A DNA stretch of 49,439 bases from Actinomycetes bacterium. GTDB lineage: Bacteria > Actinomycetota > Actinomycetes > Propionibacteriales > Propionibacteriaceae. The stretch is from contig JAJXWF010000004.1 of the NCBI GenBank assembly GCA_021781735.1, forward strand, positions 1-49,439, given 5' to 3'. This document shows positions 3,099 to 16,565 of this stretch, one piece after another (the stretch's first letter is position 1; each line of letters opens with the position of its first letter). The notes under the pieces were generated by a model. It did no database searches. It was not told where the DNA came from and worked only from the letters and a program-made list of their open reading frames with translations. Position numbers and translations under genes: made by a program.

Positions 3099-3139
3099 CC
3101 ATCCCTCGCATCACCCACCCTCACCGAAAGGAACACGCC

Positions 3140-4171
3140 ATGCGTGCAGTCAAGTTGTACGGAGCCCGCGACGTCCGCGTCGACGACGTGCCGATGCCCA
3201 CCATCCGCGAGGACGGGGACGCGATCATCAAGCTCGCCGCCGCCTGCGTCTGCGGCTCCGACCTGTGGGCCTACCGCGGTATCGACCCGATCACCGACCC
3301 GATAACCGTCGGCCACGAATACTGCGGGGTCGTGCAGGAGGTCGGCCCGGCCGTCAGACACGTCAAGCCCGGCGACTTCGTCGTCGGCTCGTTCTTCGCC
3401 TCCGACGGCACCTGCGAGATCTGCCGGTCCGGCTATCCGAGCGGCTGCATCCACCGGCGCCCGATGGGGGCCGAGAACTGCCAGGCCGAGTACCTGCGCG
3501 TCCCGCTCGCCGACGGGACGCTGGTCGCCACCCCCGAGTTGCCGGACGCCGACCTCATCCCGTCCCTGCTCGCCGCGTCCGACGTGCTCGGCACCGGCTG
3601 GTTCGCCGCGAAGGCGGCCGAGGTCGGGCCGGGGAAGACCGTCGCCGTGGTCGGTGACGGAGCCGTCGGCCTGCTCGGCATTCTCGCCGCCAAGCAACTC
3701 GGAGCCGAACGGATCATCGCCATGAGCCGCCATCAGCCCCGCCAGCAACTGGCCCGCGAGTTCGGCGCCACCGACATCGTCACCGAACGTGGTGACGAGG
3801 GCGTCGCCCGGATCAAGGACCTCACCCACGGGTACGGCGCCCACTCCACCCTGGAAGCGGTCGGAACGCAGGAGGCGATGCTGCAGGCCATCCGCGCCAC
3901 CCGACGCGGCGGGCACGTCGGCTTCGTCGGCGTCCAGCACGGCGTCGCGATCCCCGGCGACGAACTCTTCTTCTCCCAGGTGCACCTGCACGGCGGCCCC
4001 GCCCCCGTCCGCGCCCACCTGCCTGAGCTCATCGACCTCATCATGAGCCGCACCATCAACCCCGGCCGGGTGTTCGACCTCGAACTCCCCTTCGACCAGG
4101 CCGCCGAGGCCTACGCCGCCATGGACGAACGCCGCGCCATCAAGGCCCTCCTCACCTTCGACAAGGAATGA
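3140..4171 (+). CDS. Zinc-dependent alcohol dehydrogenase (MDR family)
   Basis: 343 residues, full family length. An N-terminal GroES-like domain has the catalytic zinc ligands in CVCGSD (Cys about 38) and GHEYCG (His about 60). The structural-zinc loop is GTCEICRSGYPSGC, and the Rossmann fingerprint AVVGDGAVG lies near residues 172-180. The start is the ATG at 3140 behind GAAAGGAAC; the open frame to 2978 is only antisense-rich lead. NAD(P)-linked oxidation of an alcohol or reduction of an aldehyde in the cytoplasm is expected; the substrate cannot be read. The stop overlaps the next start by ATGA. Intact although both neighbours upstream are wrecked, so it may still be selected. Confidence 0.92.
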   Translation: MRAVKLYGARDVRVDDVPMPTIREDGDAIIKLAAACVCGSDLWAYRGIDPITDPITVGHEYCGVVQEVGPAVRHVKPGDFVVGSFFASDGTCEICRSGYPSGCIHRRPMGAENCQAEYLRVPLADGTLVATPELPDADLIPSLLAASDVLGTGWFAAKAAEVGPGKTVAVVGDGAVGLLGILAAKQLGAERIIAMSRHQPRQQLAREFGATDIVTERGDEGVARIKDLTHGYGAHSTLEAVGTQEAMLQAIRATRRGGHVGFVGVQHGVAIPGDELFFSQVHLHGGPAPVRAHLPELIDLIMSRTINPGRVFDLELPFDQAAEAYAAMDERRAIKALLTFDKE

Positions 4172-4554
4172 CGATGAGCGGGACCTGGGCCAGCGAGACC
4201 CTCGAGCGGATCATCACGGCCGATGACCTCAAGGTGTCGCCCCTGCGCGCGGACGGCAGCACCGACGGCACCCCGACCTGGATCTGGTGCGTCGCCGTGG
4301 ACGGGGACTTGTACGTCCGCGGCTACAACGGCACCGCCTCCCGCTGGTACCAGGCCGCGCGGGCGCGTCCGCACGGCCGGATCCACGCCGCGGGACAGAC
4401 GCACGACGTCACATTCGAACCCGCCCCCGCCGAACTGGCCGACCGGATCGACCAGGCGTACCGCGCCAAGTACGCCACCAGCCCCTACCTGCCACCCATG
4501 ATCGGCGCACGCGCCCGCGCCGCCACCCTGCGGATCACGCCCCACCACGCGTGA
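4168..4554 (+). CDS. DUF2255 family protein
   Basis: 128 residues. The family pattern is clear: W.WCVAVDGDLYVRGYNG followed by SRWYQAA and a C-terminal YRAKYATSPYL stretch. This is a small split-barrel, flavin-reductase-like fold of unknown function that often sits beside oxidoreductases. The ATG at 4168 overlaps the dehydrogenase stop (ATGA); a second ATG at 4174 is also possible. Coupled to the alcohol dehydrogenase and followed by a cupin remnant, an arrangement I recall from other actinobacteria. Role unknown. Confidence 0.85.
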   Translation: MTMSGTWASETLERIITADDLKVSPLRADGSTDGTPTWIWCVAVDGDLYVRGYNGTASRWYQAARARPHGRIHAAGQTHDVTFEPAPAELADRIDQAYRAKYATSPYLPPMIGARARAATLRITPHHA

Positions 4555-4564
4555 CCCCGGCTCA

Positions 4565-4598
4565 CCCCGAGCCACGGAACACCCCGAGCCACGGAACA
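4565..4598 (+). repeat. Two tandem copies of a 17-bp unit
   Basis: CCCCGAGCCACGGAACA occurs at 4565-4581 and again at 4582-4598 with no mismatch, just after the DUF2255 stop and just before the cupin remnant. It is probably a slippage duplication in decaying DNA. Confidence 0.8.
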
Positions 4599-4629
4599 CC
4601 AGGACCGATCAACACCGAAGGGAACACCC

Positions 4630-4860
4630 GTGCGGATCACCCGCACCTCCATCGACACCGCCAGGGGACCAGCTGACTGGTTCGCGGGGGATGTCCAGAT
4701 CGACGCCGTCGCCGCAGCCTGGATGCTGTCCGCCACTCGGAGCCTGCCGACGAGGAGGCGGACCTGGGTGCCGGCGGGGCGAGACGAGGACCGCGCGACC
4801 GCAGCGCGGGGCCCGTCAGGAAGAGGTGTGGTGATCCGCGGAAACTGCCACTCACACCGC
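4630..4860 (+). pseudogene. Truncated cupin-domain protein
   Basis: A GTG at 4630 with GAAGGGAA upstream opens a frame reading RTSIDTARGPADWFAGDVQI, the characteristic N-terminus of small cupins (quercetin-dioxygenase-like or carboxymuconolactone-linked) that follow zinc alcohol dehydrogenases and DUF2255 genes. Identity ends at about residue 31 (AVAA, near 4722). The rest (to about 4860) is an Arg-rich tail without the His-x-His metal motif or beta-barrel. Only the head of the gene survives, abutting the TetR gene, so a deletion junction near 4725 is likely. The 305-base stretch 4555-4859 contains only this remnant and the 17-bp repeat. Confidence 0.65.
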
Positions 4861-5516
4861 TAGTCGCCCAGCCCCGGGGGAGCCTCGACTGCGCGGGGCG
4901 GCGCGAGCAGCGACTCGAGTAGCATCAGCGCCTGGGTCTGGGGGGCGGCATCGTCGAGGAGTTTCTGCGATTGGAGGCCATCGGACGCGGCGATGACCAG
5001 GGCCGCGACGGTCCCGGGGTCCACGTCGGCACGGATGAGACCGGCAGCCTGGTTGCGGCGAACCCGCTCCGCGAGATTCGCCCGTGCCTGGGCGAACCGG
5101 ATCGTGGCGAACCGGGTGGCCTCCGGATGCCCTGATTCGAGCGCGGTGGCGACCAGGGTCGAGTAGAGCTGAACCAGGCCCGGCACCGTGTGATTGCGGC
5201 GGGCGGATGCGGCCATGACCTTGACGGCGGAGATGTCCGGGTCGTGTGGCTCATGCTCGTGTGTCTGCCGCTCGGCCTCGCGGTAGACCTCGACGAGCAG
5301 TGCCTCCCGCGAGCTGAAGTAGTGGGTGAGCGCGGCGTGCGAGACGCCGATCTCGCGGGCGATGGCGCGAAGGCTCGTCCCTTCGGAGCCCCGCCGAGCG
5401 AACACCTCGATGGCACGGTCGAGGATCTCCTGGCGGCGCGCCACACCCTTGGCGTAGGAGCCACGAGCGGCTGCCGACGGCCCACCCGGGTCCTGGGGAT
5501 TCTCGGCTTCGCGCAT
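4860..5516 (-). CDS. TetR-family transcriptional regulator
   Basis: 218 residues. The N-terminal TetR helix-turn-helix (residues about 20-66) reads RQEILDRAIEVFARRG, then SLRAIAREIGVSHAALTHYF. The C-terminal helical domain is of the TetR_C type (TVAALVIAASDGLQSQKLL). The start is the ATG at 5516; a much longer open frame upstream is antisense of the isomerase genes. It is divergent from the isomerase/dehydrogenase operon with a 102-base gap containing the palindrome at 5537-5558, so autoregulation and control of that operon are likely. The inducer is probably a sugar derivative (inference). Confidence 0.9.
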   Translation of the reverse strand: MREAENPQDPGGPSAAARGSYAKGVARRQEILDRAIEVFARRGSEGTSLRAIAREIGVSHAALTHYFSSREALLVEVYREAERQTHEHEPHDPDISAVKVMAASARRNHTVPGLVQLYSTLVATALESGHPEATRFATIRFAQARANLAERVRRNQAAGLIRADVDPGTVAALVIAASDGLQSQKLLDDAAPQTQALMLLESLLAPPRAVEAPPGLGD

Positions 5517-5536
5517 GACGCGGATTCTAGCGGTCC

Positions 5537-5558
5537 AAAACCGCCATTTGGAGGTTTT
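5537..5558. promoter_or_regulatory. Probable TetR operator, imperfect 22-bp palindrome
   Basis: AAAACC.CC....GG.GGTTTT lies between the divergent TetR and isomerase genes; 9 of 11 half-site positions are complementary. It is conspicuously A/T-flanked for this genome. The position and symmetry fit a TetR-type repressor site controlling both directions. Confidence 0.6.
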
Positions 5559-5618
5559 CGATGCTAGGCTCGACCGCGTCCAACGGCCTGTGCCAGGCCA
5601 CGACTCGAGAGGGAGCCA

Positions 5619-6425
5619 ATGTCGGCACTCACATCCATACAGCTGTTCACGTTGCGGGAGGCCATGGAGGCCGACCTCGACGCCACCCTGGCCGAGGTGG
5701 CCAGACGCGGGTTCACCGCGGTGGAGGCGTACAACTTCGTCGCCACCGCCCCCGAGCTCGCCGCGTCCCTGAAGAAGAACGGGCTCGTCGCCCCCACCGG
5801 TCACGCGTTCCTGGCCACGACCTACTTCGTCAACCCCGACGGCAGCGATTCGACCAGCCCGGTGCCCACCCCGGCCCAGGTGCTCGACGCCGCCGAGGTG
5901 CTCGGCATGACCACCGTCATCGATCCCTACACCCCACCCGCTCGCTGGCAGACGCGCGAGCAGATCGAGAAGACCGCCGAGCTGCTCAACGCCGCGGCCG
6001 AGCAGGCCTCGGCGCGAGGGCTGCGCGTCGGGTATCACAACCACAACCACGAGATCGAGGCGCGCATCGACGGCCAGATCGGCCTCGAACTGCTCGCGAG
6101 CCTCCTCGACCCGCGGGTCGTGCTGGAGGTCGACCTGTACTGGGTGGCCCGCGGGGGTGTCGATCCGGTGGCGCTGGTGAAGCGACTGGGCGATCGGGTC
6201 GTCGCCGTCCACGTCAAGGACGGCACGCTCGACGCGGAGGCGATCAAGGCCTACCCGCCGGCCGACCAGGTGCCCGCCGGGCAGGGGGTCGTGCCCCTCG
6301 CCGAGGCGCTCGCCGCCGCCTCGGCGCTCGAGTTCGCCATCGTCGAGTACGACGCCTACTACGGCGGCGACCTGTTCGACGCCGTCGAGGCGAGCCGCAA
6401 GTTCCTGGACCACGAGGAGGCGTGA
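5619..6425 (+). CDS. Sugar phosphate isomerase/epimerase (AP-endonuclease-2-like TIM barrel)
   Basis: 268 residues. A xylose-isomerase-like TIM barrel with the usual metal-site pattern: the YHNHNHE strand (residues about 138-144), EVDLYW (Asp about 175), AVHVKDG (His about 199) and a late IVEYDAY Glu. It opens with SIQLFTLREAME, typical of the IolE/IolH-like branch. ATG with GAGAGGGAGCC upstream. The first gene of a three-gene operon; its stop overlaps the next start (TGATG). With the following paralogue and a Gfo/Idh dehydrogenase it probably forms a route for an oxidised (keto-) sugar or cyclitol. The substrate is not readable. Confidence 0.88.
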   Translation: MSALTSIQLFTLREAMEADLDATLAEVARRGFTAVEAYNFVATAPELAASLKKNGLVAPTGHAFLATTYFVNPDGSDSTSPVPTPAQVLDAAEVLGMTTVIDPYTPPARWQTREQIEKTAELLNAAAEQASARGLRVGYHNHNHEIEARIDGQIGLELLASLLDPRVVLEVDLYWVARGGVDPVALVKRLGDRVVAVHVKDGTLDAEAIKAYPPADQVPAGQGVVPLAEALAAASALEFAIVEYDAYYGGDLFDAVEASRKFLDHEEA

Positions 6426-7159
6426 TGACCACGTTGAGTCTTCAGCTGTACACACTGCGCGACCAGCTGGCGGCCGATCGCGACGCAACACTGGCCGCGT
6501 TGGCGACGATGGGCCTCGACGAAGTCGAGCCCTTCGGCATCGAGAACTTCGACTGGCTCCCCCAGGCACTGGCGGAGCACGGCCTGAAGGCCGGCAGCGC
6601 CCACGCCGGCGTGACCAAGAACCCCGAGGGGGTGCTCGCGGCGGCATCCGCCCTCGGAGTGAAGACGGTGTTCCTGCCGAGTACCGACCGGGACGCCTGG
6701 AACACCGCGGACGGGATCCGTGGGGCCGCGGCCGGGCTGAACGCGCAGGTCGACCGGTTCGCCGGCGCCGGGGTGGCGCTCGGCTACCACAACCACGACT
6801 TCGAGTTCCGGGCTCCCGACGTGAACGGGGTTCCGGCCTACGACTTCTTCGTCTCGCTGCTTGACGAGCGGGTCGTGCTCGAGGTGGACACCTACTGGGC
6901 CGTGGCCGGGGGGCGGAGCGTGACCGGGCTGTTCGACAGCTACGGCGAGCGGATCACCCACCTGCACGTCAAGGACGGCCCACTGGAACCGTCGCGATCC
7001 GACGCGATCAACGTGGTGCTGGGCGAGGGCAGGATGGACATTCCCCCGATCCTGGACGCATCACCGAACCGCACCTGGGTGCTCGAGTTCGACCTCGCCG
7101 GCGCGGACCCGATCGACGAGGTGCGACGCAGCATCGAGTACCTGAAGGCGGCCCGCTGA
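6425..7159 (+). CDS. Second sugar phosphate isomerase/epimerase
   Basis: 244 residues, a shorter paralogue of the preceding gene (LSLQLYTLRDQL opening, GYHNHDFEF, EVDTYWA, HLHVKDG, VLEFD at the end), with the same metal-binding pattern. ATG at 6425 overlaps the upstream stop. Its own stop overlaps the next ATG at 7159 (TGATGG), so the three proteins should be made in fixed ratio. Two adjacent non-identical isomerases may act on successive intermediates or form a heteromer (inference). Confidence 0.88.
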   Translation: MTTLSLQLYTLRDQLAADRDATLAALATMGLDEVEPFGIENFDWLPQALAEHGLKAGSAHAGVTKNPEGVLAAASALGVKTVFLPSTDRDAWNTADGIRGAAAGLNAQVDRFAGAGVALGYHNHDFEFRAPDVNGVPAYDFFVSLLDERVVLEVDTYWAVAGGRSVTGLFDSYGERITHLHVKDGPLEPSRSDAINVVLGEGRMDIPPILDASPNRTWVLEFDLAGADPIDEVRRSIEYLKAAR

Positions 7160-8247
7160 TGGCCGTCGGAGTCGGCATCGTCGGGGCCGGGAACATCTCG
7201 ACGCAGTACCTCACCAACCTCACCACCTACCCCGACGTCACGGTGGTGGCGATCGACGACCTCATCCCGGAGCGGGCACAGGCCCAGGCGGAGAAGTTCG
7301 GCGTCCCCACCTGGGGCGGCGCGGGAACCGTCGTCACCCTGCCCGAGGTCGAGATCGTGGTGAACATCACGCCCCCGGAAGTGCACGTCGACGTGTCGCT
7401 CCAGGCGATCCGCGCCGGCAAGCACGTCTGGAGCGAGAAGCCGCTGGGCCTCAACCGTGCCGCGGCACGAGCGCTGCTGGACGAGGCCGCCGAACGCCAG
7501 CTGTGGGTCTGCTGCGCCCCCGACACCGTCCTCGGCCCGGGCATCCAGGCGGCCCTGAGGTCGGTCGGCGACGGGTCGATCGGACGCCCGATGGCGGGAC
7601 TCGCGATCATGCAGGTGCCCGGGCCGGACCTGTGGCATCCGGACCCCGCGTTCCTGTTCCAGACCGGCGCCGGGCCGGTGCTGGACATCGGCCCGTACTA
7701 CTTCACGTCGCTGGTCCTCGGCCTCGGGCCGGTCACCTCGGTGACCGCGGCCGGCGGCAAGGCGAGGGAGGTGCGGACGGTCATGGCCGGACCCAAGGCG
7801 GGCACCGACTTCCAGGTGACGGTCCCGACCACCGCCAACGTGCTGCTGCGGCACGCGTCGGGTGCCTCCTCGGTGTGCCTGTTCTCCTTCGACTCCGGCC
7901 AGGCACGCGCCGGGGTCCTGGAGTTCCAGGGCAGCACCGGCACCATCGTCGCACCCGACCCCAATGTCTTCGGCGGCTCGATCACCACCCACGCCGGCGG
8001 CAAGGCCACCAACACCACCACGGTGGAGGCGGCCGGAAACGGCCGGGGAATCGGCGTCGTCGACATCGTCCGGTCACGGGCCGCGGGGCTCCGCCCACGG
8101 CTCCAGGCCGACCTGGCCTTCCACGTCCTCGACATCATGCTCGCCGTGGAGGAATCCATCGCCAGTGGCGAGACGGTGGCGGTGACGTCCGCGGCACCCG
8201 CAGTCAACCCACTCCCAGAGGGCTGGGACCCCACGACGGCCGGGTGA
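7159..8247 (+). CDS. Gfo/Idh/MocA family oxidoreductase
   Basis: 362 residues. The N-terminal Rossmann fold has GIVGAGNIS, and the family EKP motif is present as SEKPLG near residue 95. The C-terminal alpha/beta substrate domain includes LDIGPYYFTSLVLGLGPV. Expected to be an NAD(P)-dependent sugar or cyclitol dehydrogenase. It is translationally coupled to the two isomerases and is the last gene before the strong hairpin at 8272-8306. The order isomerase, isomerase, dehydrogenase resembles inositol or 3-keto-glycoside catabolic sets, but no diagnostic partner (IolB, IolD, DUF1080) is in view. Confidence 0.9.
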   Translation: MAVGVGIVGAGNISTQYLTNLTTYPDVTVVAIDDLIPERAQAQAEKFGVPTWGGAGTVVTLPEVEIVVNITPPEVHVDVSLQAIRAGKHVWSEKPLGLNRAAARALLDEAAERQLWVCCAPDTVLGPGIQAALRSVGDGSIGRPMAGLAIMQVPGPDLWHPDPAFLFQTGAGPVLDIGPYYFTSLVLGLGPVTSVTAAGGKAREVRTVMAGPKAGTDFQVTVPTTANVLLRHASGASSVCLFSFDSGQARAGVLEFQGSTGTIVAPDPNVFGGSITTHAGGKATNTTTVEAAGNGRGIGVVDIVRSRAAGLRPRLQADLAFHVLDIMLAVEESIASGETVAVTSAAPAVNPLPEGWDPTTAG

Positions 8248-8271
8248 CACCGACCCTGAGAACGCGACGAT

Positions 8272-8306
8272 GATCGGAGCCGGCCGTCTGACGGCCGGCT
8301 CCGATC
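8272..8306 (+). terminator. Perfect 16-bp stem with 3-nt loop
   Basis: GATCGGAGCCGGCCGT, loop CTG, then the exact complement, 24 bases after the dehydrogenase stop. A strong intrinsic terminator of the isomerase operon. The rest of 8307-8732 (about 425 bases) before the oxidoreductase gene contains no gene I can support; it must hold the promoter of that gene. Confidence 0.85.
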
Positions 8307-8732
8307 TGTCGTGAGCCCGCCCAACCGGGTGCTCGCCGGCTCGACTGCTTCCCGATGACCCCGGCCTCGACGCCGCTGCCGGGCCCCGCGGTGATCGATG
8401 CCTCCCGAGTGGTCGGGGGGCGCGTTGCCGTGCCTCGCCCATTGCGCCCCGCGGCACACCTGGTGGAGCGCCGTCCGCGGCGGGATCCGTGATCGGATCG
8501 CCCGGGACGCTGTCCGGATCGACCCCCGAACGCGCGCCACAACGGCGATCGAGTCCGACTCCCGCAAGCCGACCAGCCGCGTCCACCGAACCTGGCGCGC
8601 GTCGGGGCCCCGGGAATTCCAGTGCGCCCACCACCTGATAGACATGAACCACCGAACGAGGCGACTTCCCGGCACACCGGTGTCGCCGCGACATCACCCC
8701 GTCCGGGCAATGCATCTGCGAGGGAGCAGGCA

Positions 8733-11700
8733 ATGACCCAGACGACGAGCGCACCGGCGTCAGCGCCGAAGACCACCGCCCCCCGGTTCCCGGGCGAGCC
8801 GGTGGTGATCAACGGCAACGGGGCGGTGGCCCACGTCATGAGCCACGTCTGCGGGGGCGTCATCGGCTTCCCGATCACCCCGTCCACCGAGATCTCCGAA
8901 CTCTACGAGGCCGCCCGCGCCGAGGGCCGACGCAACGTGTGGGGCAGGCACCCGTTCTTCTTCGAGCCCGAGGGTGAACACTCGGCCCAGTCCGGAGCGC
9001 TGGGAGCCGCCCTCACCGGCGGCCAGTACGTCTCCAACGCCTCCTCCAGCCAGGGCATCCTCTACGCGATGGAATCCCACTTCGTCACGGTCGGCAAGAA
9101 GATCGGCGGTTTCGTGCTGCAGATCGCCGCGCGCGTGGTGTCCAAGCACTCCCTCAACGTGATGGCCGGCCACGACGACGTCTACGCGCTGATGTCGTCC
9201 GGCTACACCATCCTGTTCGGCTCCAACCCGCAGGAGGCCGCCGACCTGGCTGCGATCGCCTACCGCACGTCGGCGCTGTCGCTGATCCCGGTGGCCAATG
9301 CCATGGACGGCTTCGCCACCAGCCACATGCTGTCCGAAGCCCGTCTTCCCGAGCCGGATCTGTTGCGCGAATACCTCGGCGACCCCACCGGGCGGATCCC
9401 CTGCCCCACCGTCGCGCAGGAGATGCTCTTCGGCGCCAAGGGCCGGGTCTTCCAGCTCGGCGAATACCTCACCCGGCAGGCCGGCGAGTTCGATCCTGGG
9501 GACGCCGACGTCCTGCGGTCCTTCCTGAGCGCCAAGGGCGATGAGATCGAGGCTGACAACGCCGGCGACCTCGTCCCGCAGACGCTGGTCTGGGTGCCCG
9601 AGGAACTGCACGGCAGCTGGCGGCGCCAGTGGGTGAACGCGCACCGGAAGGGCACCCGCCAACTGGTCCCGGCGCTGGTCGACGTCAACAACCCCGGCCT
9701 CACCGGGCCCGTGCAGAACCAACCCGACTTCCAGGCCGGTGCGGTCGACCATCGCACCCACTTCGCCTCGGCGGTGCCGCGCCTGGCCCGGCAGGCGATG
9801 GCCGAGTACGCAGACCTCACCGGACGCATCTACCACCCGGTGATGGCCTACGACTGCGACGACGCCGACGTGATCATGGTCGGCCTGGGGTCGGTCGTCG
9901 ACGACGTCCGCGCCGTGCTCCCCTACCTGCGCGCCCAGGGAATCAGGGCCGGGTTGGTGGCGGTCAAGTTGCTGCACCCCTTCCCCGACGCCGAACTGGT
10001 CGCCGCCCTCAAAGGCGCCCGGGCGGTGACGGTGCTCGAACGCTCCGACCAGCTCAACCTCACGGCCGCGGTCATCCAGGCGCTGTATCGCGCCAACGAC
10101 AACGTCGACGGCGTGCGTCACCCCGGCATCGAACCGCTCACGCGGATGCCCGAGATCACCACCGCGATCTTCGGGCTCGGCGGCCACGACCTGCAGCCGC
10201 GCCACCTGATCGCCGCCTACAAGAACATGGCCGACACGGTCGGCGGCGCTCCGGCACCCCTGATCTACCTGGGCTCGACCTTCTTCGATGAGGACGCCGA
10301 CGGCAGGATGCGAGAGCTTCAGGACACGCTGCGCTCGGCCTACCCCGAGACCGAACTGATGTCGCTGCCCACCGAGCCCAACCCGAACCTGCTGCCCGAC
10401 AAGGCCCTGCGCATCCGGTTCCACTCGGTCGGAGGCTACGGCACCATCGCCACCGGCAAGCTCCTCACCGACATCCTCGCCGGCGTCCTGGGCATGCACT
10501 CCAAATCAGCGCCCAAGTACGGGTCGGAGAAGTCCGGGGCCCCGACCAACTACTACATCACCCTCAGCCCCGATCCGGTGCTGCTCACCAATGCCGAACT
10601 CGAAGAGGTCGAGGTGGTGATCAGCCCCGACCACAAGGCCTTCGTGCACACCAACCCGCTCAAGGGCCTGGTCGACGGCGGCACCTTCATCCTCCAGTCC
10701 GACCTGAGCCCGGCCCAGGTCTGGCGGGAACTGCCCCGCCACGCCCGGCGGACCCTCCGGGAGCGCCAGATCAAGTTCGTCATCATCGACGCGTTCTCGG
10801 TGGCCAAAAAGCACGCGCCGACCCCCGACCTCGAGACCCGGATGATGGGCATCGCGTTCATCGGCGCGGTCGCCGCACACCTGGACGCCGTGTCCGAGGG
10901 CGCCTCCGAGGAGGCGATCCTGCAGAAGGTGCAGCAGCAGATCGAGAAGAAGTTCGGCCGCTTGGGCGAGGCCGTCGTCGAGGGCAACATGGCGGTCATC
11001 CGCGGCGGCATCCAGGCGGCCCGGCTGGTCGACTACGCCGACCCCGACCTGCAGGCGGTCGACGTCAAGGGCGAGCCGATGCTGATCCGCTCGGTCGCCA
11101 CCTCGGCGGCGATGTGCGGCACCGCCACCGCGGCCCGCTCCAGCGGCCTGTTCGACCCCGTCTACTACGAAGACCTGGCCGCCCGGCCGTTCCGCGAGGG
11201 CACCATCGGCGAGTGGCCGGTGCTGCCCGGAGCCGGCTTGTTCATGCCGCCCGGCAGTGCGACCTTCAAGGACAAGGGCCTGTTCCGCCGCACCGTGCCG
11301 ATCTTCGATCCCGATCCGTGCACCGGCTGCCTCGAGTGCGCGCTGGTCTGCCCGGACGCCGCGATCCCCAACACCGTGCACGAACTCCACGACCTGCTGC
11401 TCACCGCGATCGCTCAGGTGGACGCGACACCCGCCCAGATCGAGGCGCTCACGCATGAGGTGTACGGACTGGCCGAACGGGTCCGCGACGCCTACCGGCA
11501 CACGAAGGACCACCTCCCGTTCCACGAGGCGGTGGCCCGGGCGGCCGGAGGCATCGACGACGACCAGCCGTCGCTGCAGCGCAACCTGGCAAAAGTGGTC
11601 GACGTGCTGGCCACCTACCCGGTCGCGCGCACCCGTCCGTTCTTCGATGCGATGGAGTCCGAGCAGCCGGGCACCGGTGGGCTGTTCGCCGCGACGATCG

Positions 11701-13775
11701 ACCCGTGGAAGTGCACGGGCTGCCTCGAGTGCGTCGAGGTGTGCGGCCCCGGTGCGCTGACCTCCCGCGACCAGGATCCGGGCACCCTGACGATGCTGCA
11801 GGACCGCTTCGAGTTCCTCACCAAGGCCCCGAACACACCCGACCGATACTTCGAGGGTGCCGTCGATCCGGGCGGGGACACCAAACGGTTGATTCTCGAC
11901 CACGACAACTTCTACGCCACCACCGGCGGGCACGGCGGTTGCCGGGGGTGCGGTGAGGTCACCGCGACCCGGCTGGTCATGTCGGCCTCGCACGCCCTGG
12001 GAGACCAGCGCCGCAAGCTGCACCGCAAGCAACTGGACGCCCTTCTCGCCCGCCTGGTCGCCAAGCTGGAATCCCTCGGCGCCGACGAGACCGAGCGCCG
12101 CCAGCGGATCGAGCGCACCATCGCGCGGCTCGACCAGCGGCTGTACCTGTACGAGGGCGGGCCCACCGGCGACGGTCCGTCGTCGACGATCGTGGCGAAC
12201 GCGACCGGCTGCTCCAGCGTCTACGCCTCGACCATGCCCTACAACAACTTCACCGACCCGTGGGTGAACTCGCTGTTCCAGGACACCCAACCGCTCGCCA
12301 AGGGCATCTACGAGGGCGTCGCCGCACAACTCGTCGACGACGTCCGGGCGCTGCGTACCGCAGACCTCGAGCTCAACGATTCCTACGACCCGAGCATCCA
12401 CGACCGGCAGCTGGCCGACCTGCACTGGGATCGGTTCACCCCCGAGGAGCGGGCGTTGATGCCCACCGTACTGACCATCGGCGGGGACGGTGCGTCCTAC
12501 GACATCGGCTTCGGTGCGATGTCACGAATCCTGGCGAGCGACACCCCCGTGAAGATGGTGGTGCTCGACTCGGGTGTTTACTCCAACACCGGCGGGCAGA
12601 CCTCGACGGCCAGCTTCACCGGACAGGACTCCGACCTGTCCCGCGTGGGTACGGCCAATGAGGGCAAGCACGAGGGCCGCAAAGAGATCAGCCTGCTGGC
12701 CGCGTTCCATCCGAATGTGTTCGTCTGCTCGGCCTCCACGGCGTATCAGAACCACTACCTCACCAACACGATGGAGTTCCTCACCGTCGACGGTCCGGCG
12801 CTGATGGACGTCTACACCCCGTGCGGTGCCGAGCACGGCATCCCCGAATCGGCGTCGGCCGCCCGGGCGAAGCTGGCGGTGGAGTCCCGGATGAACCCGC
12901 TGTTCGTGCACGACCCCCGGCGCGGGACGACGCTGCACGAGCGGTTCTCGCTGGAGGGCAACCCGTCGATCGAGGAGACGTGGGCAACCACCACCCTCGA
13001 GTACCGGGACGCCGACGGCGCCCTGCACCTCATGGAGACCCCCGTCACCCCCGCAGAGTTCGCGCTCGGCGAGACCCGGTTCAAGAAGCACTTCCACCGG
13101 CTGAGCGCCGAGCAGGAGGGGGTCGCGGTGTCGATCCACGAGTACGTGGACCTGCCCGACGACCGGCGAGCCGCGAGCGTGCCGTTCATCTACGCCACCG
13201 ACGAGGACCAGCACCTGATCAGGGTCGCCTGCGACCCGGCGATCGTGCACCTGGTCGACGACCGGCGGCGCCACTGGCAGCAGCTGCAATACCTGGCCGG
13301 AGTGCACGTGGGGAAGCTGACCGCGGTGCACGCGCGCGAGGTTGCCGAACTGCGGGCACGGTACGAGGAGGCGGTCGCCGCCCGCGACGCCGGACTCGAC
13401 GACATCGCCCGCGCGATGTCCGAGCTCGCCGGCGCCGGCCGATCGTCCGGCGCGGGGGTGGCCTCGGCGCTGACCCTGTCGGTGCGCTCCGGCGCGACCG
13501 CGGCTCCGGCCGCCGAGCCGGCCGCCCGCGGCGCGGTGACGAGTCCGGCCCCGATCGTGCTGGCCGAGAGCAACATGGCGTTGTGCAACGACTGCGGCAC
13601 CTGTTATCAGGAGCTCCCGCAGCTGTTCGAGTCGACGCGGATCGTCGTCGACGGGCAGTCCCGCTCGGTGGCCCGGATGATCCCCGGGGCCCTGGACAAG
13701 GTCGAGATCACCCCCGACATGGAGAAGCGGATCGCCCGGGTGAAGGCCACCTGCGACGCCGAGATCATCCACTAG
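8733..13775 (+). CDS. nifJ: Large pyruvate:ferredoxin (2-oxoacid) oxidoreductase with extra C-terminal iron-sulfur domain
   Basis: 1680 residues against about 1170-1200 for ordinary single-chain NifJ. Order: thiamine/pyruvate domain (GFPITPSTE, residues about 44-52); transketolase-C-like domain with AVTVLERSDQ (about 430-440); gamma domain (SVGGYGTIATGKLL, about 565); two [4Fe-4S] motifs, CTGCLECALVC (about 863) and CTGCLECVEVC (about 991), separated by an unusual insert of about 115 residues; and the TPP domain with GGCRGCGE (about 1068), a charged helical insert, NATGCSS, GGDGASYDIG (about 1250) and SNTGGQ. A further 300-plus residues end in a ferredoxin-like CNDCGTC (about 1616) with a fourth Cys near the terminus. 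The start is the ATG at 8733 behind GGGAGCAGG. Oxidative decarboxylation of pyruvate (or another 2-oxoacid) to acyl-CoA with ferredoxin reduction is expected. The Nfn fusion follows 27 bases later. Confidence 0.93.
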   Translation: MTQTTSAPASAPKTTAPRFPGEPVVINGNGAVAHVMSHVCGGVIGFPITPSTEISELYEAARAEGRRNVWGRHPFFFEPEGEHSAQSGALGAALTGGQYVSNASSSQGILYAMESHFVTVGKKIGGFVLQIAARVVSKHSLNVMAGHDDVYALMSSGYTILFGSNPQEAADLAAIAYRTSALSLIPVANAMDGFATSHMLSEARLPEPDLLREYLGDPTGRIPCPTVAQEMLFGAKGRVFQLGEYLTRQAGEFDPGDADVLRSFLSAKGDEIEADNAGDLVPQTLVWVPEELHGSWRRQWVNAHRKGTRQLVPALVDVNNPGLTGPVQNQPDFQAGAVDHRTHFASAVPRLARQAMAEYADLTGRIYHPVMAYDCDDADVIMVGLGSVVDDVRAVLPYLRAQGIRAGLVAVKLLHPFPDAELVAALKGARAVTVLERSDQLNLTAAVIQALYRANDNVDGVRHPGIEPLTRMPEITTAIFGLGGHDLQPRHLIAAYKNMADTVGGAPAPLIYLGSTFFDEDADGRMRELQDTLRSAYPETELMSLPTEPNPNLLPDKALRIRFHSVGGYGTIATGKLLTDILAGVLGMHSKSAPKYGSEKSGAPTNYYITLSPDPVLLTNAELEEVEVVISPDHKAFVHTNPLKGLVDGGTFILQSDLSPAQVWRELPRHARRTLRERQIKFVIIDAFSVAKKHAPTPDLETRMMGIAFIGAVAAHLDAVSEGASEEAILQKVQQQIEKKFGRLGEAVVEGNMAVIRGGIQAARLVDYADPDLQAVDVKGEPMLIRSVATSAAMCGTATAARSSGLFDPVYYEDLAARPFREGTIGEWPVLPGAGLFMPPGSATFKDKGLFRRTVPIFDPDPCTGCLECALVCPDAAIPNTVHELHDLLLTAIAQVDATPAQIEALTHEVYGLAERVRDAYRHTKDHLPFHEAVARAAGGIDDDQPSLQRNLAKVVDVLATYPVARTRPFFDAMESEQPGTGGLFAATIDPWKCTGCLECVEVCGPGALTSRDQDPGTLTMLQDRFEFLTKAPNTPDRYFEGAVDPGGDTKRLILDHDNFYATTGGHGGCRGCGEVTATRLVMSASHALGDQRRKLHRKQLDALLARLVAKLESLGADETERRQRIERTIARLDQRLYLYEGGPTGDGPSSTIVANATGCSSVYASTMPYNNFTDPWVNSLFQDTQPLAKGIYEGVAAQLVDDVRALRTADLELNDSYDPSIHDRQLADLHWDRFTPEERALMPTVLTIGGDGASYDIGFGAMSRILASDTPVKMVVLDSGVYSNTGGQTSTASFTGQDSDLSRVGTANEGKHEGRKEISLLAAFHPNVFVCSASTAYQNHYLTNTMEFLTVDGPALMDVYTPCGAEHGIPESASAARAKLAVESRMNPLFVHDPRRGTTLHERFSLEGNPSIEETWATTTLEYRDADGALHLMETPVTPAEFALGETRFKKHFHRLSAEQEGVAVSIHEYVDLPDDRRAASVPFIYATDEDQHLIRVACDPAIVHLVDDRRRHWQQLQYLAGVHVGKLTAVHAREVAELRARYEEAVAARDAGLDDIARAMSELAGAGRSSGAGVASALTLSVRSGATAAPAAEPAARGAVTSPAPIVLAESNMALCNDCGTCYQELPQLFESTRIVVDGQSRSVARMIPGALDKVEITPDMEKRIARVKATCDAEIIH

Positions 13776-13802
13776 CGCGGATCACCCACGAGGCAGGTTG
13801 CC

Positions 13803-16565
13803 ATGACCGATCAGCTCACCGAGCAGAGCCCGCTGCTGGACCAGCAACTCGAGATCCTCAAGCGGCGGCTGCAGGCCGACCCGGGCCAATTCCGCGACGT
13901 GTTCATCTCCGAGGGCATGCAGGCGGTCGCCTGGCAGTTCGCCCAGCCCGACCTCTCGCCGGAGTTCACCGTCACCCTGTGGGACTCGCTGCGCCGGGCC
14001 GACGACGCGTCCAGGATCCTGATGCGGTTCATCTGGGCGCTGCCACTCGGGATGAAGCGCAAGTTCATCCGAGCGCTCGACGCCCACCTGTCCGAGCGCT
14101 ACCCGATGTTCACCGGGCTGTCGGTCGACTGGCCGGCCGACAACGCGATTCCGCCCTACATCCGCGAGCCGGGCGAGCGCGATCACGACTTCGAGCTGGT
14201 CAACCAGGGCTACCTGGGGTACATGAAGCTCGGCTACACCGCCGGCGACGTCGACCTGTTCGTGTGGCTGGAGGCGCTGCGCGACAAGCAGTGCGCCGAA
14301 AAGCCGTGCGAGGTCGGCATCCACCTCAACCGTCCGGGCGAGCCCGACCGGATTACGGGCGGCTGCCCGGTGCGGATCCACATCCCGCAGATGATGGAGC
14401 TGGTCGGCACCGGCCGGTTCCGCGAGGCGCTGGAGTTGATCGAGAGGATCAACCCACTGCCCGACGTCACCGGACGGGTGTGTCCGCAGGAGAACCAGTG
14501 CCAGGGCGTGTGCATCCTCACCCGGACGCCGATCGCCATCGGGCAGGTGGAGTGGTTCCTGCCGGAGCGGGAGAAGCTGGTCAACCCGGGCGGCGACGCG
14601 GTCCGCTTCGCGCAGCACGTCGACCCGTGGACCGCGGCCACCAAACCGCCGGTCGCGATCGTCGGGTCGGGCCCGTCCGGGCTGATCAACGCCTACCTTC
14701 TGGCCGCCGAGGGATTCCCGGTGACGGTGTTCGAGGCGTTCCACGCGCTCGGTGGGGTGCTGCGGTACGGCATCCCCGAGTTCCGGCTGCCCAACGAGCT
14801 GGTCGACGACGTGGTCGGCAAGATCCGGCTGCTGGGCGGTCGCTTCGTGTCCAACTTCGTGGTCGGCAAGACCGCCACCTTGGAACAGCTCAAGGCCAAC
14901 GGCTTCTGGAAGGTGTTCGTCGGCACCGGAGCCGGACTGCCGCGGTTCATGAACGTGCCCGGCGAGCACTTCAACTCGGTGATGAGCGCCAACGAGTTCC
15001 TCACCCGGGTGAACCTCATGCAGGGCCTGCGCTCCGACTACGAGACCCCGCTGCCGGTGATCGAGGGGAGGCGGGTGATCGTCATCGGCGGGGGCAACAC
15101 GGCCATGGACGCCGCCCGCACCGCCAAGCGGCTGGGCGGGCACGTCACCCTCGTCTACCGCCGCACCCGCACCGAGATGCCCGCCCGGGTCGAGGAACTC
15201 GAACACGCCCTCGAAGAGGGAGTCGACCTGATGGTGCTGCGCTCGCCCATCGAGTTCGTGGGCGACCCGCAGACCCACTTCGTCACCGCCGCCACCCTCG
15301 ACGTGATCGAACTGGGGGAGGCCGATGAGTCCGGCCGGCGGCGTCCGATCAGCACCGGGCGCACCGAGACGATCCCGGCCGACCTGGTGATCATGGCCCT
15401 CGGCAACACGTCGAACCCGATCATCCGCGACTCGGAGCCGGATCTGCGGATCAGCACGTGGGGCACCATCGATCTCGCCGCGGCGGGTTCGCAGCTGACC
15501 TCGATGCCCGGCGTCTACTCCGGGGGGGACGCCACCCGCGGCGGTTCGACCGCCATCAATGCCGCCGGCGACGGGCAGGCCGCCGCGCGCGAGATCGTCG
15601 GTCACATCGACGTGCCGCCCGACCGCATCCGGGCGATGGTCGCCCGGGCCGAGGCCTACACCGAGCGCGCCTCGACCGCGCAGACGATCGTGACCAAGGC
15701 CCACCTGGCCGACGGGATCGAGGAGTTCACCGTCCACTCCCCGCTCATCGCCATGGCCGCCCGCGCCGGGCAGTTCGTACGGGTGTTGCCGTGGGACACC
15801 GGCGAGTTGGTCCCGCTCACCCTGGCCGACTGGGATGCGGACGCCGGCACCATCTCGCTGTGCGTGCAGGGCATGGGCACCAGCAGCATCGAGATCAACC
15901 AGATGCGGGTGGGCGACGCATTCGCGGGCATCGCCGGGCCGTTGGGGCGTCCGAGCGACCTGGAATACTACGGCCCCGACCGCACCGTGGTGTTCGCCGC
16001 CGGCGGGCTCGGCCTGCCCCCGGTCTACCCGATCATGCGCGAGCACCTGTTCCTCGGCAACCACGTGACGCTGATCGCCGGGTTCCGCTCCAGGGACCTG
16101 CTGTTCTGGACCGGCCCCGATGAGCGGGTCGAACGCCTGCGCGCCCGGTTCCCCGACACCCTGGACATCATCTACACCACCAACGACGGCACCTTCGGCC
16201 GGGAGGGCTTCGTCACCGGACCGCTGCAGGATCTGCTGGACGCCGCCCTGGCCGGCACCCCGGCCCGTCCGGTGGCCGAGGTCGTGGCGATCGGCCCGCC
16301 GCTGATGATGCGCGCCGTCAGCGACCTGACCCGGCCGTACGGCGTCAAGACGGTCGCCTCGCTCAACTCGATCATGGTCGACGCCACCGGCATGTGCGGG
16401 GCCTGCATGGTGCCAGTCGTCGTCGACGGCAAGCCGATCCGCAAGCACGCCTGCATCGACGGCCCCGAGATCGACGCCCACCTCATCGACTGGGACAAGT
16501 TCCTGCCCCGCTTCGCCCAGTTCCGCGCCCAGGAGGCCGACAGCAGGGCCCGCCACGGGCTGTGA
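13803..16565 (+). CDS. Single-chain Nfn-type transhydrogenase: NfnB(GltD-like)-NfnA fusion
   Basis: 920 residues. Residues 1-155 match nothing I recognise. 160-280 is the GltD-type iron-sulfur domain (Cys 164, 169, 188; then C227-PQE-NQ-C233-QGV-C237). 285-310 is the FAD fold (AIVGSGPSG). About 425 is the NAD(P) fold (VIVIGGGNTAMDA). About 566 is VYSGGDATRGG. From about 625 comes an NfnA/PyrK-like reductase: beta-barrel, AAGGLGLPPVYPI (about 733), and the [2Fe-2S] segment ATGMCGAC..(K)HACIDGPE (about 861-885). In separate-subunit Nfn these halves bifurcate electrons between ferredoxin, NADH and NADPH. Here they are one chain, large subunit first. It is 27 bases downstream of the PFOR gene, so almost certainly co-transcribed. 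ATG with GAGGCAGG upstream. Confidence 0.9.
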   Translation: MTDQLTEQSPLLDQQLEILKRRLQADPGQFRDVFISEGMQAVAWQFAQPDLSPEFTVTLWDSLRRADDASRILMRFIWALPLGMKRKFIRALDAHLSERYPMFTGLSVDWPADNAIPPYIREPGERDHDFELVNQGYLGYMKLGYTAGDVDLFVWLEALRDKQCAEKPCEVGIHLNRPGEPDRITGGCPVRIHIPQMMELVGTGRFREALELIERINPLPDVTGRVCPQENQCQGVCILTRTPIAIGQVEWFLPEREKLVNPGGDAVRFAQHVDPWTAATKPPVAIVGSGPSGLINAYLLAAEGFPVTVFEAFHALGGVLRYGIPEFRLPNELVDDVVGKIRLLGGRFVSNFVVGKTATLEQLKANGFWKVFVGTGAGLPRFMNVPGEHFNSVMSANEFLTRVNLMQGLRSDYETPLPVIEGRRVIVIGGGNTAMDAARTAKRLGGHVTLVYRRTRTEMPARVEELEHALEEGVDLMVLRSPIEFVGDPQTHFVTAATLDVIELGEADESGRRRPISTGRTETIPADLVIMALGNTSNPIIRDSEPDLRISTWGTIDLAAAGSQLTSMPGVYSGGDATRGGSTAINAAGDGQAAAREIVGHIDVPPDRIRAMVARAEAYTERASTAQTIVTKAHLADGIEEFTVHSPLIAMAARAGQFVRVLPWDTGELVPLTLADWDADAGTISLCVQGMGTSSIEINQMRVGDAFAGIAGPLGRPSDLEYYGPDRTVVFAAGGLGLPPVYPIMREHLFLGNHVTLIAGFRSRDLLFWTGPDERVERLRARFPDTLDIIYTTNDGTFGREGFVTGPLQDLLDAALAGTPARPVAEVVAIGPPLMMRAVSDLTRPYGVKTVASLNSIMVDATGMCGACMVPVVVDGKPIRKHACIDGPEIDAHLIDWDKFLPRFAQFRAQEADSRARHGL

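Follow-up and report, generated by a model that had tools for sequence, protein, structure and literature searches.

A PFOR-like oxidoreductase with a tethered ferredoxin is encoded next to a one-chain Nfn: a candidate pyruvate-to-NADPH module

The window analyzed here, a stretch of 49,439 nucleotides, belongs to a draft genome (G000) of 3.19 Mb in 285 contigs. Two adjacent genes code for a PFOR-like 2-oxoacid oxidoreductase and a one-chain Nfn (Table 1). A preliminary description of the same DNA had reported that a long PFOR, extended by a C-terminal ferredoxin domain, stands 27 bases ahead of a one-chain Nfn. Pfam searches confirmed the domains of both proteins (1680 and 920 residues, both on the forward strand), a Fer4_15 match at PFOR residues 1616-1680 established the ferredoxin domain, and the interval between the PFOR stop codon (TAG, 13773-13775) and the Nfn start codon (ATG, from 13803) is indeed 27 bases.

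Table 1. Features of the PFOR-Nfn gene pair (positions refer to the window)
Feature	Position	Strand	Remarks
PFOR-like 2-oxoacid oxidoreductase with C-terminal ferredoxin domain	8733..13775	+	1680 aa
POR_N domain	8859..9368	+	PFOR residues 43-212; Pfam E 9.7e-34
PFOR_II domain	9864..10079	+	PFOR residues 378-449; Pfam E 1.5e-13
POR gamma-type domain	10431..11012	+	PFOR residues 567-760; Pfam E 6.7e-28
Two [4Fe-4S] motifs (Fer4)	11301..11753	+	PFOR Cys 863/866/869/873 and 994/997/1000/1004; all invariant
TPP-binding core (TPP_enzyme_C)	12465..12629	+	PFOR residues 1245-1299; Pfam
Tethered single-cluster ferredoxin domain	13569..13772	+	PFOR residues 1613-1680; Fer4_15, E 4.6e-6
Spacer with Shine-Dalgarno-like GAGGCAGG ahead of Nfn start	13776..13802	+	27 bp
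One-chain Nfn, pattern C (NfnB/L part, then NfnA/S part)	13803..16565	+	920 aa; NF009415
Nfn N-terminal helical domain (NTD)	13803..14291	+	Nfn residues 1-163; unmatched in Pfam
Nfn distal-cluster motif D161-xx-C164-xxxx-C169	14283..14309	+	invariant in 67/67
NfnB/NfnL part	14358..15602	+	Nfn residues 186-600; Cys 188, 227, 233, 237 and proximal-cluster Glu250
NfnA/NfnS part	15681..16550	+	Nfn residues 627-916; [2Fe-2S] ligands D860, C865, C868, C884

The domains of the first protein follow the order expected of a PFOR (POR_N, PFOR_II, POR, two Fer4 motifs, and the TPP domain), with an insert of about 110 residues separating the two [4Fe-4S] motifs. Four further cysteines (1070, 1073, 1160, and 1364) are assigned to the proximal cluster and four more (1618, 1621, 1624, and 1674) to the cluster of the ferredoxin tail, the fold of which is predicted with a pLDDT of about 90. 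All 16 cluster cysteines (eight in the internal motifs, four proximal, and four in the tail) are invariant in 64 full-length PFORs. T49, E82, R134, and N1285 are likewise invariant in 64 sequences; their counterparts in an alignment with Desulfovibrio PFOR are Thr31, Glu64, Arg114, and Asn996, residues that we take to have catalytic and pyruvate-binding roles. Domain order, catalytic residues, and three internal [4Fe-4S] clusters are shared with the PFORs of Desulfovibrio africanus and Moorella thermoacetica (PDB 1b0p, 7plm, 6cin). In contrast to these proteins of about 1200 residues, the window PFOR comprises about 1680 residues, with the large inter-motif insert and a fourth cluster in its C-terminal ferredoxin. 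Against TIGR02176, the NCBI equivalog for PFOR, it scores 377.8 bits at a cut-off of 911. We therefore treat it as a member of a PFOR-like subfamily with pyruvate as the putative substrate.

The second protein matches NF009415 (PRK12779) with 1620 bits (cut-off 1519) over residues 7-919 of 920, and its NfnB part precedes its NfnA part. This places it among the pattern C fused Nfns, which occur in Actinobacteria and Proteobacteria, are about 200 residues longer, and have a reversed domain order (Liang, Huang and Wang 2019, PMC6405883). Some authors assign these proteins a basal position among the Nfns, and their properties have been termed uncharacterized (PMC6405883). The window Nfn agrees with this group in chain order, extra length, and host phyla. 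Pfam recognizes Fer4_20 and Pyr_redox_2 followed by DHODB-type FAD/NAD and [2Fe-2S] domains, and matches no family to residues 1 to about 163. The extra N-terminal domain (NTD) pointed out in the preliminary description is therefore present, but it is not peculiar to this gene, since it belongs to the catalogued family NF009415. The NTD alone scores 235 bits against this family, and in the window it is about 40 residues shorter than in most relatives.

The text on pattern C in PMC6405883 does not discuss a linked PFOR, a tethered ferredoxin, or an aspartate at the distal cluster, all of which are features of the present loci; PFOR is named there only in the legend to a gene-arrangement figure, and a functional unit with Nfn is not discussed. 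In the open-access literature, the scope of our search, we found no described PFOR-Nfn or PFOR-Rnf unit. Within this scope, the earlier statement that no complex of this make-up was known holds for the combination, but not for its Nfn part, which was known as pattern C. What is new here is the strength of the PFOR-Nfn pairing; the parts are not all new.

All 12 cluster ligands of Nfn are invariant among 67 Nfns, including Asp860 and Glu250, which aligns with E126 of P. furiosus NfnL. A site-differentiated glutamate at the proximal [4Fe-4S] cluster combined with an aspartate at the [2Fe-2S] cluster is a hallmark of bifurcating Nfn (PMC9503767), and the 67 sequences carry both. The distal cluster is different. 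Asp161 replaces the first cysteine of the motif in 67 of 67 Nfns, whereas ordinary NfnB has RCxxC, and the four-cysteine [4Fe-4S] motif of bifurcating Nfn (RCxxCx4C and a distant Cys) is absent. This cluster faces ferredoxin in NfnSL (PMC9503767), and in the present protein the NTD immediately precedes the corresponding motif. The aspartate might alter or weaken electron entry at this position. With NfnSL/NfnAB of Pyrococcus furiosus and Thermotoga maritima (PDB 5jca, 4ylf), the window Nfn has in common the fold of both halves, the proximal glutamate, and the Asp/Cys3 ligation of the [2Fe-2S] cluster. Those enzymes differ in that they consist of two chains, contain a four-cysteine distal motif, lack the NTD, and have free ferredoxin as their partner.

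An alignment of the NTD scanned against 84,980 genomes returned 197 relatives, the best 80 of which were fetched. Their hosts are Actinomycetota and alpha-, beta-, and gammaproteobacteria. In each of these loci (80 of 80, the best of 197) a tailed PFOR lies directly upstream of the NTD-bearing Nfn on the same strand, its ferredoxin tail having the form CxxCxxC...CDAEI; on some short contigs, L082 among them, the PFOR gene is represented by its 3' part only. The stop codon of PFOR and the start codon of nfn overlap by four nucleotides (ATGA or GTGA) in 77 of these best 80, which makes the 27-bp gap in the window atypical. Across 62 loci no other neighbor is conserved beside the pair, and PFOR and Nfn therefore appear to form a stand-alone two-gene module. 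The NTD was not found apart from the pair in 369 gammaproteobacterial and 396 actinomycetotal sampled genomes, and a search of plasmids gave no match. The pair occurs in 6 of 33 sampled genomes from the family of the window outside its own genus, always adjacent where the contigs allow this to be seen. Conversely, every evaluable long PFOR of the Nfn type has an NTD-bearing Nfn next to it in a small sample that comprised the window, the six further family genomes, and samples of alpha- and gammaproteobacteria (in G458 the end of the contig truncates the locus). The preliminary description had named as a refutation the wide occurrence of the two extensions in genomes without the partner gene, and the loci sampled here gave no such refutation. 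That all 80 NTD Nfns (the best 80 of 197) and all Nfn-type long PFORs that could be checked are paired strongly supports a dedicated pyruvate-NADPH module. Co-transfer as a unit, however, would also hold PFOR and nfn together.

The end of the PFOR gene seems to have a second role. The glutamate of the CDAEII motif is encoded by GAG in 77 of 78 loci, compared with 70% GAG elsewhere in these genes. Likewise, of the 68 loci with alanine at the corresponding position of the tail, 65 use the codon GCG for it (40% GCG elsewhere), and GGAG is found within 20 nt of the PFOR stop in 74 of 78 loci. Codon bias and GGAG position are as expected for translational coupling of PFOR and nfn, and suggest that the final codons of PFOR probably double as the nfn ribosome-binding site. 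The reading of the CDAEII tail as a cluster ligand only was refined to include this likely function of its codons. Furthermore, in almost every locus the reading frame of Nfn continues without interruption through the PFOR stop codon. A PFOR-Nfn fusion by programmed frameshift or read-through was rejected as an explanation, because the constant frame follows from the ordinary ATGA/GTGA overlap and the window differs from this layout.

One relative (L057:5406-10037, genome G221) has lost the ferredoxin domain of its PFOR by a clean in-frame deletion, and retains the PFOR core, Nfn, and the CDAEII end. Preservation of this end can be ascribed to the nfn ribosome-binding site that it would carry. 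The persistence of Nfn beside a PFOR without a ferredoxin domain indicates that the tether is not essential everywhere. This deletion and the PFOR score below the equivalog cut-off are the main evidence against the module.

The two proteins have diverged in a coordinated manner, with PFOR and Nfn distances correlating at r = 0.93. The shared trend was removed by regressing out the distances of the PFOR core, NfnL, and NfnS. The ferredoxin domain and the NTD then show a residual correlation of 0.36, and 0 of 2000 permutations gave a value as high. By comparison, 60 control windows from the PFOR core reached at most 0.28 against the NTD (mean 0.01), and windows just before the ferredoxin domain gave 0-0.13. 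The ferredoxin-NTD correlation is modest and falls to 0.24-0.25 inside each major group; it hints that the tail touches the NTD, but does not prove this. When the ferredoxin tail and Nfn were modeled by AF2 as one chain, with the in-frame TAG of the window read as Gln, the pLDDT was 81. Foldseek matched the Nfn halves to P. furiosus NfnI (5jca_L, E 7e-38; 5jca_S, E 3e-25). The NTD is predicted by AF2 to be helical (mean pLDDT 78.5), and a Foldseek search of the PDB returned no fold match for it better than E 5.

Ordinary PFOR and Nfn operate via free ferredoxin. By analogy, the coupling described here could be functional and translational only: PFOR would reduce free ferredoxin, Nfn would use it, and tail and NTD would contribute to stability, oxygen protection, or assembly. 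The existence of L057 without a ferredoxin domain fits this explanation, as does the window genome, in which an ordinary PFOR and an NfnB-like gene are neighbors. Nevertheless, we consider it rather unlikely, because it accounts neither for the restriction of the NTD to tailed-PFOR loci in the sampled genomes, nor for the invariant cysteines of the tail, nor for a ferredoxin domain that varies with the NTD instead of with the PFOR core.

Tailed PFORs are not limited to Nfn loci. Among 369 gammaproteobacterial genomes, 16 encode sister proteins of about 1660 residues, about 35% identical and equipped with a ferredoxin tail of the same kind; plasmids of Persicobacter and Gemmatirosa encode such proteins as well. 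Every one of them adjoins rnf genes, with complete contigs showing rnfB-PFOR-rnfCDGEA or a close variant and shorter contigs showing part of it; this is apparently a PFOR-Rnf unit. The respective loci (L179-L194, L145, L146) belong to Gammaproteobacteria, Bacteroidota (Persicobacter), and Gemmatimonadota (Gemmatirosa). In contrast to the window PFOR, the partner is the membrane Rnf complex rather than Nfn, and the proteins form a separate clade: a tree computed with a quick method gives full support to two sister clades, one Nfn-linked and one Rnf-linked, and places the ordinary PFORs apart from both, on a long branch. Tailed PFOR thus appears to be dedicated to the ferredoxin oxidizer encoded next to it, and the ferredoxin tail as such is not Nfn-specific. 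The earlier idea of a pyruvate-to-NADPH module gains from the exclusive gene pairing, but is weakened by the tail on Rnf-partnered PFORs and by the absence of the ferredoxin domain from L057.

Cohaesibacter, Propionivibrio, and Tetrasphaera have a third arrangement, in which nfnA-nfnB-korA-korB is accompanied by a gene for a protein of about 750 residues related to the C-terminal part of PFOR (five-gene operons at L207:162-7965, L208:121-8046, and L209:3-8082). The Cohaesibacter copy of this protein, the one that was scanned, ends in a Fer4_13 ferredoxin. The operon is a possible 2-oxoacid-to-NADPH counterpart, and it suggests that some hosts route other 2-oxoacids to Nfn as well. Might the PFOR-like enzyme itself act on a 2-oxoacid other than pyruvate? 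Its position far below the equivalog cut-off, its large inserts, and the separate kor operon with a tailed protein in some hosts are compatible with this reading. On the other hand, all PFOR domains are present and the equivalents of Thr31, Glu64, Arg114, and Asn996 are invariant, which makes a different substrate highly improbable.

Taken together, we think it probable that the two genes code for one dedicated two-protein electron-transfer module. In this module the PFOR-like enzyme would convert pyruvate and CoA to acetyl-CoA and CO2. Electrons would pass through the three internal [4Fe-4S] clusters to the fourth cluster, located in the ferredoxin domain that a flexible linker connects to the C-terminal end of PFOR. 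The tethered ferredoxin could then dock on the ferredoxin-facing end of the pattern C Nfn, the location of the NTD and the Asp-ligated distal cluster, from where electrons would proceed to the proximal cluster and on to L-FAD. There they would meet electrons from NADH, delivered via S-FAD and the [2Fe-2S] cluster, and NADP+ would be reduced. The net reaction would be pyruvate + CoA + NADH + 2 NADP+ -> acetyl-CoA + CO2 + NAD+ + 2 NADPH, or the reverse.

All of these steps are reversible in known enzymes, and the module could operate mainly backward, with NADPH driving the synthesis of pyruvate. Bifurcation of two NADPH at Nfn would send electrons to NAD+ and, via the tethered ferredoxin, to a PFOR that carboxylates acetyl-CoA, so that acetate or propionate-derived units would be assimilated. 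The conserved bifurcation-type ligands agree with this direction, and some hosts are phototrophs or form storage polymers (for example Rhodopseudomonas, Propionivibrio, and Accumulibacter). Several hosts, however, are fermentative actinobacteria in which the expected flux is pyruvate oxidation, and in 62 loci no gene for acetate assimilation is conserved next to PFOR and nfn. Although sequence does not decide the direction, we regard a mainly reversed module as unlikely.

For the forward direction we advance a more specific proposal, tentatively and with slightly less than even confidence. The pair may constitute a pyruvate-fueled, electron-confurcating NADPH synthase that works without soluble ferredoxin, in which PFOR and pattern C Nfn form one complex and the tethered ferredoxin swings between PFOR and the NTD/distal cluster. 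It would represent one branch within a broader family of "private-ferredoxin" PFORs; in the other branch, the tethered ferredoxin would feed Rnf ion pumps.

A 2-oxoacid oxidoreductase that passes its electrons to a flavoprotein reducing NAD(P), with no free ferredoxin in between, has precedents in Euglena PNO (a pyruvate:NADP+ oxidoreductase), Azoarcus evansii KorABC (a 2-oxoglutarate:NADP+ oxidoreductase), and phenylglyoxylate:NAD+ oxidoreductase. Euglena PNO contains a fused cytochrome P450 reductase-type domain. To our knowledge, the Kor and Pad enzymes consist of separate subunits and contain neither an NfnA half nor a tethered ferredoxin.

The proposed module would give the pattern C Nfns of uncharacterized function a testable role. 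It also suggests a source of NADPH in polyphosphate-, glycogen-, and PHA-cycling bacteria (Accumulibacter, Propionivibrio, and Tetrasphaera relatives), as well as in Rhodopseudomonas and Propionibacteriaceae. More generally, it points to a design in which PFOR aims its own tethered ferredoxin at one acceptor, Nfn or Rnf, rather than at a common ferredoxin pool. Such a design could insulate low-potential electrons, an old question in ferredoxin networks and metabolic engineering.

Some loci carry further variations. The ordinary PFOR in the window genome (L195, contig C6; 1246 residues) and the NfnB-like gene upstream of it (600 residues) are encoded by overlapping ORFs on the minus strand (3129-6866 and 6848-8647), and thus represent another PFOR-NADPH pairing. 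In Sodalis, Nfn (L122:9728-12862) bears a long repetitive extension rich in Ser, Asn, and Ala (SSQNA.. repeats) on the N-terminal side of the NTD. The Sodalis-like genome G260 contains, besides an intact pair, a free-standing gene for a ferredoxin tail of 164 residues (L210:6751-7242, minus strand), which may be either a ferredoxin released from PFOR or a copy in decay.
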